Shown here: piece after piece, positions 3,691-7,678 of the stretch
Layout of the letters: every line of letters starts with the position of its first letter
Position numbering within the stretch: position 1 is the stretch's first letter
NCBI RefSeq assembly: GCF_000423425.1
Contig: NZ_AUHY01000006.1
Coordinates: 1-64,000, forward strand
Direction of reading: 5' to 3'
DNA: 64,000 bases
From: Meiothermus rufus DSM 22234
GTDB lineage: Bacteria; Deinococcota; Deinococci; Deinococcales; Thermaceae
Notes under the pieces: model-generated
The model's input: only the letters and a program-made list of their open reading frames with translations
Told to the model about the DNA's origin: nothing
Database searches by the model: none
Translations under genes and position numbers: made by a program

Positions 3691-4059
3691 TTACTCCAGG
3701 GGTTTGCGGGCTTTGCGGGCTTCCCGACGCACCTTAGGGTCTAGCCCAATCATCAGGAAGAAATTCTCCAGGGCGTTCTCCTGGCCTTTGATCTCGGGGT
3801 GGGCATCCTCGGCAGTGCCAGTGACGAACGGCAGGGACTGGTACATTTCCAAAGCCTGCGCCACCACTGCATCAGGCCCCTGGGTTTCGGCCACCTCAGC
3901 CAGCTTGGCGTAGATTTCCCGCCGGGCTTCGGCGTGCAGGCGGAAAACCTCGGGGTTGGGGGTTTCCGGCGCCCGGAGGACGTCTTGTTTGGCAATACGG
4001 CGATAGTGCTTGAGACCGCGCACGATTTCCTCGGTGGAGAGGGTCACCTTGTACTCCAT
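3691..4059 (-). CDS. unknown 122-residue helical protein behind a consensus promoter
   Basis: Not recognised. MEYKVTLSTEEIVRGLKHY begins a soluble, charged, mostly helical protein ending in a very basic tail (RREARKARKPLE). It has no signal peptide, membrane segment or cysteine pattern. The ATG at 4059 is chosen because GAAAGGAG (4065-4072) is correctly spaced upstream; an ATG five codons earlier would place that site inside the gene. It is preceded by TTGACA-18-TATAAT, one of the best promoters in the window, and a leader of about 50 bases, which suggests high expression. Confidence 0.75.
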   Translation of the reverse strand: MEYKVTLSTEEIVRGLKHYRRIAKQDVLRAPETPNPEVFRLHAEARREIYAKLAEVAETQGPDAVVAQALEMYQSLPFVTGTAEDAHPEIKGQENALENFFLMIGLDPKVRREARKARKPLE

Positions 4060-4118
4060 CCTGGCTCCTTTCAACGCTAAACCCCTGGGGCGAGGATTAG
4101 GTTGATACTACCGAAGCG

Positions 4119-4148: not shown

Positions 4149-4233
4149 CGCGGTGTAATAGGAATGCTTTTTGGGTAAGCTCAGGGTTTTAAGGGTCGGG
4201 GGAAGGCGGCTCTGGCAGGCTATACTGCCTTAT

Positions 4234-5331
4234 ATGGAAAGCCTGGGGCACTACTTGTTGCGCGGGCCCTTGGCCCTGCCCGAGGGGGGTGCAACCGAGG
4301 TTTACGAGGGCCAGGATGTGCGAACCGGCATTGAGGTGCTGGCCTTCAGGCCCTGTAGTGGGGAGCCGCCCAGGCTGGCTTTTGCCCAGGCCTTGCCCTG
4401 GATAGACCACCTCGAGCAGGCCTGGATTGCCGAGGTACCAGTGGGGGCAGTACAGGCTTCCTGGCTGGTGGGCCAGGTGGAGCCTGTGCGGCTGGCCCAG
4501 TGGGTCAAGCAACTGGTGGGGTTGCTCGAACAGGCCCGCGCGCAGGACATTCCCATTGGGCGGATCATTCCCGAGCTTATCTGGGTGCGGGGGAGCCGGG
4601 CCTGGTTGGGCGGGGTGGGGGTGGAAGTCCCAGAGCAGCGCTGGGATTTTTCCGGTTTACTGCAGGCCATACGGGCCATCGCGAAGGAAACCTACCCTAC
4701 CCTGCCCTGGCGGGAGGTACTGGAGGGCTATTTGACTGGGCAGGTGGGGCACGCCCAACTGCTGGAGCAGCTCGAGGCTTTTATCGCTGCACCCGAGGCC
4801 GAGGTGGCTCCCACAGCACAGGAGAGTGCACCGACGGAGCCTTCTTCTGCGGCTTCCCCCCCGCCCAACAAGTCCCTCAAGGTGGAACAGGAAGAACCCC
4901 CCCCGCCCCCACCCCCGCCGCCCCGCCGCATTCGCATTGAGGAGCGCCTCGAGCCGCCTTTCGAGGTGCTTGAGCCACCCCAAACCAGCCGCCGGGCCTT
5001 GCTTTTCTGGCTTTGGCTGGTTCCGCTTTTCTTGTTGCTGGGGGGGGTGGGCCTGTGGTGGCGTTATCGGCCTCCGCCTTCCCCTCGGGCCACGGGCTAT
5101 CCGGTGGTGTTTCGCCTCGAGCCTTCCGCGGCCCGTGCCTCGCTGGCCGTGCTGGAAGCCCCCGAGGGCTCAGCTATGCCCCTAGGGGTCGAGCTAGCCG
5201 AGCTGCCGGGAGAGGTGACCTTCGACCGCCCAGGGATTTACCGCATCCGGGTGCGGGTGCCGGGCCGGGCCCCAGTAGATGCCCTCATCGAGGTGCCCAA
5301 TCCTGGCGGGGTTACCATCCAACTGCGCTAG
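4234..5331 (+). CDS. membrane-anchored pseudokinase-like protein with PEGA-like tail
   Basis: A 365-residue protein. Residues 6-40 ([27 protein letters not shown]) follow the N-lobe of Hanks-type Ser/Thr kinases, but the ATP-binding lysine position is Phe. Residues 97-131 align with the catalytic-loop region ([15 protein letters not shown], then LIWV and GGVGVE), with HRD, the catalytic Asn and DFG all absent. A Pro/Glu linker with a run of prolines (about 222-229) leads to one membrane helix (about 255-276) and an external beta-rich tail ([12 protein letters not shown]) resembling PEGA domains. The ATG follows TATACT (4221-4226) by seven bases. Kinase kinship is my reading of the pattern and is uncertain. 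Confidence 0.55.
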
Positions 5332-5371
5332 GCGCTCGACGCCTGTATTGGCCAGGCCGTATGCTGCTGGC

Positions 5372-6898
5372 ATGAGCGTGGTTATTCTCGACTTTGGCTC
5401 GCAGTATACCCGGCTGATTGCCCGGCGTATCCGAGAGCTGCGGGCCTACTCAGTAATCCTACCGGGAACTGCCAGCCTCGAGCGCATCCAGGCTGAGAAC
5501 CCCCAGGCCCTGATTCTCTCTGGGGGGCCAGCCTCGGTTTTCGATCCAGCCAGCCCAAAGCCAGCACCTGGGGTATTGGCGCAGGGCTGGCCGGTGCTGG
5601 GTATCTGTTATGGCATGCAGTACCTCAGCCAGCACTACGGGGGCCGGGTGGAGCGGGCCGGGCGGCGCGAGTACGGCAAGGCCCACCTGATTTTCCACAC
5701 CGGGCCGCTTTTCGCGGGCCTCGAGGGCGAACTGCAGATGTGGATGTCCCACTCTGACGCAGTGACCGCGCTGCCCCCTGGTTGGCAGGTAGTCGCTAGT
5801 ACCGAGGAAAACCCGGTGGCAGCGATTGCGGCACCGGATGGACGAACCTTTGGCGTGCAGTTCCACCCCGAGGTGGTACACAGCCCCAAGGGCATGCAGG
5901 TGCTGGAGAACTTCCTGAGCCTGGCTGGGGTCAGTCGGGACTGGACTCCCCAGCACACCCTGGAAAACCTAATCGCCGAGATTCGCACCAAGGTAGGCTC
6001 CGATAAGGTTTTACTGGCGGTTTCGGGGGGGGTAGACTCCTCCACCCTGGCCCTGCTGCTCTCCCAAGCCATCGGCGACCAGCTCACCGCGGTTTTTGTG
6101 GATCATGGTCTGCTGCGGCTCAACGAGCGGCACGAGGTGGAGCAGGCTTTGCGCCCGCTGGGCCAGGCCCTACGAGTGGTGGAGGCCTCGGCCCAGTTTT
6201 TGGCCGCGTTGCAAGGGGTTACCGACCCCGAGGAAAAGCGCAAGATTGTGGGCCGAGAGTTTATCCGGGTTTTCGAGCGCGAGGCCCGGCGGCTTTCCGC
6301 GCAGGGCTACCGCTGGCTGGCCCAGGGTACCCTTTATCCCGATGTCATCGAGTCGGCGGGGGGTGGCGAGGGCAGCGCCAACATCAAGAGCCATCACAAT
6401 GTGGGTGGCCTACCCCCTGACCTCCAGTTTGAGCTGCTCGAGCCCTTCCGCTACCTCTTCAAAGATGAGGTGCGCGAACTGGCCTTGCTTTTGGGTTTGC
6501 CCGAGCCTATTCGAATGCGCCACCCCTTTCCTGGCCCCGGCCTGGCCATCCGCATCTTGGGGGAGGTGACCCCGCAAAGGTTGGATATTCTGCGCCGGGC
6601 CGACGATATCTTCATCTCCAGCCTGCGCGATTGGGGCCTTTATGACCAGGTTTCCCAGGCTGCGGCCATCCTTACGCCCTTGCAAAGCGTGGGCGTGGTA
6701 GGGGATGAGCGTAGCTACGGCTACGTGCTGGGCCTGCGGGCGGTTTCCACCACAGACTTCATGACCGCCGACTGGGCCCGGCTGCCGCTGGAGTTTTTGG
6801 ACGAGGTGGCCCGCAAGATTACCCGCCAGGTACCGGAGGTTGGCCGGGTGGTTTACGACATTACTAGTAAGCCTCCGGCCACCATCGAATGGGAGTAA
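5372..6898 (+). CDS. guaA: GMP synthase (glutamine-hydrolysing)
   Basis: Converts XMP to GMP using glutamine and ATP. The 508-residue protein carries a class I glutamine amidotransferase domain (nucleophile in GICYGMQYL, His/Glu in FGVQFHPEV), the ATP-pyrophosphatase loop [10 protein letters not shown] and the C-terminal dimerisation domain ending in PPATIEWE. The ATG at 5372 begins [12 protein letters not shown], the universal start of the family, and lies six bases after TATGCT (5360-5365), so the mRNA is probably leaderless. Together with purH it places two purine genes in the first 7 kb, though not in one operon. Confidence 0.97.
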
Positions 6899-6925: not shown

Positions 6926-7678
6926 ATGCACGCTTCTGACTATAGCGCAACCCGCCCGTTGGTGGTGCTGCACCAGGGCCATAGCCGGTGGTATCCACCG
7001 CTGCTGGCGGCCTCGCTTAGCCTGGATTTGCCGCTATTTGTCTACCCCAGCCAGGTTGGCCCTGCCCTCGAGGCCGCCCTAAGGGGGCTTTGGCCTTTGG
7101 GCTTTCGTGCCGCAGCTATAGAGGACCCCGGCCTACAGGCGCTGGCTTTAGACCTTGTGGCCCACCTCGAGGCCGAGGCCGCCCAGGCCCGTCGGGTTGA
7201 CCTGGTGGTGCCTGAGCCCAGCGGAACCCGAGGGTTTTACCAGGAGGCCTTGGCCCTGGCCCAGCTGATCCGTCGCTATGCCCTAGGCGACCAGGCCTTG
7301 TGGTTGGGGCCCCTCCGCCCCGAGCTGGCCCTGGGGCTGCGGGGCCTGGGCAAAGTCTCGCTTATGGCCCAGAGTTTTGCCCAAGGCGAGAGCTTTTTGC
7401 GCTTGCTTCCCTCGCCCCAGCAGGGGGTGGTGGCGGTCTCTTTGGCTCAGGCGGCGGGGGTGGCCCGCCAGGCTGATCTCATTCTGTACCTTGGGGGCAG
7501 TCTTCCCTTGGGTCTGCTCCAGCCGTACCATCGCTTAATTGCCCTCAGCCCCCTGCCTGCCGAGGCGTTGCGCCAGATTGGGGAATATGTGCCTCCAGAG
7601 GAGTTCCAACGCTTTCACCTGTCGGCCTTGCTCGAGCCCCTTGGCTATGCCTTGCCCCCGGAGGCCTTCACCCTTTGA
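6926..7678 (+). CDS. degenerate shikimate dehydrogenase-like protein
   Basis: A 250-residue protein that tracks AroE along its length but lacks its active site. HSRWYPPLLAASLSLDLPLF resembles the AroE start (HSxSP..HN..F...gL), LEAALRGLWPLGFRAAAIEDP matches the lead-in to NVTxPhK without the catalytic Lys, and SGTRGFYQEAL replaces NTDxxGFxxAL without the Asp. The glycine-rich NADP loop is altered to LWLGPLRPELA. It may be a pseudoenzyme or may have a different substrate. TAGATT (6913-6918) lies seven bases before the ATG; the gene starts 27 bases after guaA ends. Confidence 0.5.
   Translation: MHASDYSATRPLVVLHQGHSRWYPPLLAASLSLDLPLFVYPSQVGPALEAALRGLWPLGFRAAAIEDPGLQALALDLVAHLEAEAAQARRVDLVVPEPSGTRGFYQEALALAQLIRRYALGDQALWLGPLRPELALGLRGLGKVSLMAQSFAQGESFLRLLPSPQQGVVAVSLAQAAGVARQADLILYLGGSLPLGLLQPYHRLIALSPLPAEALRQIGEYVPPEEFQRFHLSALLEPLGYALPPEAFTL

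Follow-up and report, generated by a model that had tools for sequence, protein, structure and literature searches.

A membrane-anchored pseudokinase family of Deinococcota: a putative non-catalytic receptor or scaffold encoded beside guaA in Meiothermus rufus

What can a protein laid out like a receptor kinase do once the residues that carry out phosphotransfer have gone? The question is raised by a gene at positions 4234 to 5331 (+ strand) of the window, that is, the whole stretch of 64,000 nucleotides from Meiothermus rufus DSM 22234 (contig NZ_AUHY01000006.1) analysed here. Its product, a membrane protein of 365 aa, was put forward in a preliminary description as a candidate pseudokinase receptor with the architecture of receptor kinases such as PknB, and the domain order described below bears out that layout. 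Few bacterial pseudokinases are understood. The reading favoured here, to which we give a probability of a little over 60%, is that the protein is a single-pass inner-membrane pseudokinase acting as a non-catalytic receptor or scaffold from the envelope to the cytosol, the scaffold function being proposed by analogy.

A single-copy gene with a leaderless start

The bounds of the open reading frame are exact. A -10 box, TATACT, is located at positions 4221 to 4226 (+), 7 nt 5' of the ATG, and the same hexamer (or TATAAT before a GTG start) is found 7-8 nt upstream of the start in all orthologs inspected from Thermaceae and f4 (f1 to f5 are letters for families within Deinococcota, f1 being that of the window genome). 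A -10 box immediately 5' of the start codon is a leaderless expression mode in Deinococcus-Thermus (PMC12340547), and since the box is conserved directly upstream, the start codon of the gene can be taken as fixed. Orthologs are present in 49 of 61 relatives and in 102 of the 111 Deinococcota genomes (80/85 among the good genomes), with a named ortholog in Meiothermus hypogaeus, and the window genome has one copy; in Deinococcota as a whole the family ranks as a single-copy core gene. Pairwise comparisons within the window genus gave dN/dS values of 0.20-0.32 for the N domain, about 0.2-0.5 for the C domain and mostly 0.2-0.3 overall, and the gene is real and under purifying selection. One near-complete genome of the window genus (G002) lacks the pseudokinase gene, guaA and the gene of a 127-aa protein together; because both neighbours are likewise absent, this genome was not scored as a pseudokinase loss, and the region may be missing from the record or may have been lost jointly. 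That one copy has been maintained phylum-wide suggests that the protein does something important other than catalysis.

Kinase ancestry and catalytic loss of the N-terminal domain

As a single sequence, the window protein has no kinase match in Pfam, NCBIfam or the PDB, and kinases were reached from the pseudokinase family by profile searches only. Residues 1-185 (positions 4234 to 4788, +) were compared by hhalign, by a PDB profile search and by Foldseek. Against 11 bona fide kinases from the Deinococcota genomes studied, hhalign gave E=3.1e-26 with the profile of distant orthologs, 7.1e-9 with the Thermaceae profile and 5.6e-6 with the window genus alone, these E-values referring to single comparisons without database-search correction; reversed alignments gave 0.36-0.57 and column-shuffled kinases 0.07-0.83, controls by which a chance likeness to kinases was ruled out. 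In the PDB, a profile of four distant orthologs retrieved PknG (4.1e-6), StkP (1e-4), PknI (1.5e-4) and also PknA, all 60 listed matches being kinases, pseudokinases or kinase fusions, and the same profile also retrieves true kinases in Deinococcota genomes. The f3 and f5 orthologs are longer and keep kinase landmarks, namely GVIHGDIRPERFL at the catalytic loop, LEGFG at the DFG region, the APE motif, the D-V-Y start of helix F and the RP motif before the last helix. Taken together, the profile comparisons indicate that residues 1-185 descend from a Hanks-type Ser/Thr kinase. That the resemblance is coincidental and the domain an unrelated fold is barely credible: the lack of a kinase match for the single sequence in Pfam, NCBIfam and the PDB would fit it, but the profile-profile and profile-sequence tests are positive with clean controls and intermediate orthologs retain HGDxxPE, APE and RP motifs. 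A tree of the N domain places f1, f4 and f2 apart from f3 and f5, with kinases in between; although the program warns of long branches, the tree is consistent with vertical inheritance from an ancestor of the phylum. As a separate observation, the true kinases scoring best against the pseudokinase profile are a group of small soluble f3 kinases (L097, L098, L099 and L100; open frames of 257-312 aa) with intact motifs (such as HCDVKPSN and DFG).

The predicted structure points in the same direction, at low confidence. AlphaFold2 (AF2) was given the window protein and orthologs 64-68% identical to it, with 4-5 sequences per alignment, and because the input was limited to such close orthologs both models, at pLDDT 55-59, are of low confidence. 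For residues 1-185 (pLDDT 59, pTM 0.53) the elements follow the kinase order of three strands, a short helix, two strands, a long helix, two strands and three helices: beta1 at 7-13, beta2 at 21-28, beta3 at 34-40, beta4 at 65-70 and beta5 at 73-78, followed by a helix at 84-103, strands at 111-119 and 122-129, a helix at 140-153 and two more helices. Compared with the PDB by Foldseek, this domain model has only protein kinases among its top 50 matches (best E 9.1e-4, TM at most 0.40, at the model's pLDDT of 59), including M. tuberculosis PknB with probability 0.99, and the top 50 for the full-length model are likewise all kinases. The kinase-like order of elements that had been read into the first 130 residues is thereby borne out, by the low-confidence AF2 order and by the profile alignments, and within residues 1-190, the stretch on which the proposal depended, the profiles and Foldseek (on the low-confidence model) point to protein kinases.

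The catalytic positions were placed by profile alignment to kinases from the same and related genomes. At the site of the ATP-binding beta3 lysine stands F38 (positions 4345 to 4347, +; VLAF for VAIK), and no aligned ortholog has a lysine there. The catalytic loop, residues 108-116 (4555 to 4581, +), is degenerate and reads IGRIIPELI for HRDxKPxNI, so that I108-G109-R110 replaces HRD and L115 the catalytic Asn; other orthologs have HGD, HGN, HGR or HAP at the HRD position, and the HRD aspartate survives, as HGD, in f3 orthologs only. GVG (residues 127-129; 4612 to 4620, +) replaces DFG, with Gly in place of the Asp in nearly all orthologs and Asp in none. Finally, the C-lobe is contracted to three helices (residues 138-185; 4645 to 4788, +) and the activation segment is deleted, as in Thermaceae and f4 generally, where about 50 residues are all that is left after the GxG. 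The near-invariant positions of the family include D28, T31, G32, V35, G127 and G129, and the catalytic sites are not among them. The absence of the catalytic residues stated in the preliminary description thus stands; the glycine-rich loop, which it had counted among the kinase features, is recognisable only as a remnant (EGGATEV). Of the residues expected in an active Ser/Thr kinase (beta3 Lys, HRD Asp, catalytic Asn and DFG Asp) none is present, F38, R110, L115 and G127 standing in their places. A pseudokinase has been defined as a kinase homolog without one or more of three catalytic residues (PMC12599244), and here all three are gone; the protein would accordingly be unable to transfer phosphate, as judged from its sequence.

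It could nevertheless be supposed that the domain still binds nucleotide or performs a non-canonical chemistry, as SelO and SidJ do, or uses a shifted lysine, as WNK does. In favour of this, Lys or Arg is common at residue 39 in Thermaceae and f4, the aspartate of HRD is retained as part of HGD in f3, and WNK structures are found among the Foldseek matches. However, no ortholog has the DFG Asp, the window lineage lacks that of HRD as well, the residue after beta3 should, from strand alternation, point away from the pocket, residue 39 is variable in f3 and f5, and the WNK matches derive from a low-confidence model; we consider such an activity very unlikely. The loss is also graded, from f3, with HGD and an activation segment, to Meiothermus and Thermus, with nearly nothing left, so that the orthologs offer a ready-made series in which the use of a non-catalytic kinase fold can be studied.

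Membrane anchor, ectodomain and the guaA neighbourhood

The proline-rich linker and the single membrane helix that had been described are both present, according to AF2 and the topology signals. Residues 186-252 (positions 4789 to 4989, +) form a proline-rich cytosolic linker of low conservation (AF2 pLDDT about 30) that is predicted to be disordered, with the exception of a conserved juxtamembrane motif at residues 230-249 (4921 to 4980, +), a candidate docking site, for which mean conservation in Thermales is 0.75 (231-249) versus 0.28 for residues 186-211 of the linker. The length of the linker is very variable even in one genus, in which the proteins L010, L011 and L014 range from 340 to 488 aa and share the end domains. 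The transmembrane helix (residues 253-278; 4990 to 5067, +) is predicted by AF2, with a hydropathy of 2.29 and an N-in orientation; Lys and Arg are enriched ahead of it (129 before versus 72 after, in 42 orthologs), which most likely places the N domain in the cytosol.

Beyond the membrane, residues 288-365 (5095 to 5328, +) form a putative extracytoplasmic beta domain (pLDDT about 85). When compared by hhalign with PEGA domains of the same phylum, the whole family gave E=2.3e-6 (probability 89%; reversed control 0.023) and the non-Thermaceae members 7.3e-7, whereas Thermaceae alone gave 0.0013 with a probability of 18%, the reversed controls lying at 0.008-0.06. The window protein has no Pfam match at the gathering score of PEGA (PF08308), and one distant ortholog (L045) has a sub-threshold match to it (E=0.005, 17.1 bits versus a cut-off of 20.8). 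The external domain may therefore fairly be called PEGA-like, with profile comparison as the sole basis and membership of PEGA not proven; the PEGA-like domain of the preliminary description is retained in this sense, and the PASTA alternative that it had raised for comparison falls away, the window protein having no Pfam match to PASTA.

The conservation of the two ends bears on whether the kinase-derived domain works at all. It could be an inert remnant, the working part being a membrane-anchored PEGA-like envelope anchor for which the cytosolic portion provides only stability or topology; the progressive reduction of the C-lobe in Thermaceae and a conservation of the ectodomain no lower than that of the N domain (0.66 versus 0.54 in Thermales) would be in agreement with it. 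Yet the dN/dS of the N domain, 0.20-0.32, is as low as that of the ectodomain, the domain has been kept in all families with D28, T31, G32 and G129 nearly invariant, and the linker motif is conserved, which makes an inert remnant rather unlikely.

Directly downstream lies guaA, encoding GMP synthase (positions 5372 to 6898, +; identified by Pfam and synteny). Each of the five families has members in which it follows the pseudokinase gene on the same strand, the gap being mostly 6-270 nt: f1 (the window genus, g2 and g4), f2 (G041), most of f3, f4 (wherever the sequence extends far enough) and f5 (G044). The exceptions are the Thermus-like g5 and g3, G037, G040 and G048, and L072 and L051; in the Thermus genome checked, guaA lies at another place. 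In the window, guaA has a -10 box of its own, TATGCT, just 5' of its ATG (5360 to 5365, +), and TANNNT is found here in most Thermaceae and f4 orthologs; f3 guaA genes have SD-like sites instead. The adjacency is thus ancient, but with a separate -10 box in front of guaA the two genes need not be co-transcribed in the window genus; the same box weakens a guaA operon as the only explanation of the arrangement. Upstream and in divergent orientation, f1 and f4 have genes for a uracil-DNA glycosylase and for a conserved protein of 127 aa, and f3 has other genes there. The 127-aa protein (3691-4074, - strand) has no Pfam match and belongs to a very conserved family (80-94% identity among Thermaceae and f4, 57-71% in f3/f5), and its gene is divergent from that of the pseudokinase in Thermales. 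A 250-aa frame downstream of guaA (6926-7678, +) has no Pfam match either.

The neighbourhood raises the possibility that the pseudokinase acts on GMP synthase, by recruitment or regulation, or signals the guanine-nucleotide level at the membrane. The presence of guaA as the next gene on the same strand in some members of each family, and the operon-like spacing in f3, where guaA follows closely with SD-like sites, speak for it; the splitting of the pair in Thermus, G037, G040, G048 and L072, the separate -10 box of guaA in the window genus, and the fact that adjacency is not interaction speak against, and we regard it as quite improbable. Of a similarly speculative nature is the broader picture of a Deinococcota-specific core receptor in which the dead kinase would couple the envelope state to the guanine-nucleotide supply of GuaA by direct, non-catalytic contact.

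Proposed role and comparison with known systems

Since all the residues of phosphorylation have been lost, the protein is probably a scaffold or receptor rather than an enzyme. In the non-catalytic receptor or scaffold that we favour, the disordered proline-rich linker would tether the pseudokinase domain to the transmembrane helix and the PEGA-like ectodomain; the latter may hold or sense an envelope component (peptidoglycan or S-layer), while the pseudokinase fold and the juxtamembrane motif may recruit cytosolic clients, and the envelope state would be coupled to a cytosolic process via protein contacts, by analogy with MviN and EssB. The window genome encodes four bona fide kinases (L056-L059), which could phosphorylate the linker. 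Of the dead membrane sensor originally envisaged, the catalytic death is thus upheld, and the protein may have a sensory role. Such a protein would not be without precedent: a 2025 review (PMC12599244) provides bacterial examples in MviN, EssB, ActPs2, ActPs3 and GLW, MviN and EssB being precedents for non-catalytic pseudokinase work.

The C-terminal pseudokinase of MviN (MurJ) of Mycobacterium, of the ActPs3 family, resembles the window protein in the loss of the three catalytic motifs, the deleted activation segment, the membrane link and the envelope context; it differs in being a transmembrane protein of larger size, in carrying a carbohydrate-binding domain and in recruiting FhaA, on phosphorylation, via an FHA domain (PMC12599244), whereas the window protein has one transmembrane helix and a PEGA-like domain. 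No FHA domain match was obtained in the window genome, so the phospho-recruitment route of MviN and FhaA would be unavailable there and was rejected. EssB/YukC of type VIIb secretion, as likened by description, shares one transmembrane helix and a cytosolic pseudokinase domain at the N-terminus that is small (about 200 aa), with an attenuated activation loop and a lost glycine loop, of which the window protein keeps the EGGATEV remnant. EssB, however, belongs to a secretion system, whereas the window neighbours (guaA, the uracil-DNA glycosylase and the 127-aa protein) include no T7SS gene, and the C-terminal domain of the window protein is PEGA-like, unlike that of EssB/YukC. With the PASTA receptor kinases PknB and StkP, both of which occur among the PDB-profile and Foldseek matches of the family, it shares the succession of kinase domain, linker, transmembrane helix and small external beta domain; in the window protein, however, the catalytic residues are gone, the C-lobe is reduced and PASTA repeats are absent, and it has neither the PASTA ectodomain nor the active kinase of a PknB-type receptor.

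GLW, ActPs1 and ActPs2 are likewise families of bacterial pseudokinases, from Proteobacteria or Actinobacteria, whose hallmarks (GLW for HRD, Arg for the beta3 Lys, a PQQ domain) are absent in the window protein. The review recognises seven bacterial families, mostly from Actinobacteria, Proteobacteria and Cyanobacteria, and the parts of it used for comparison describe none from Deinococcota (PMC12599244); a literature search, beyond whose reach most subscription papers lay, found no paper on the present family. Membrane pseudokinases are an already known kind of protein. The Deinococcota family combines a PEGA-like ectodomain with a C-lobe that is strongly reduced, occurs throughout the phylum and is encoded next to guaA in members of each family, and by the descriptions it matches none of the pseudokinase families that could be compared from the review. 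Thermus thermophilus, with its genetics and stable proteins, is suited to the study of this family.
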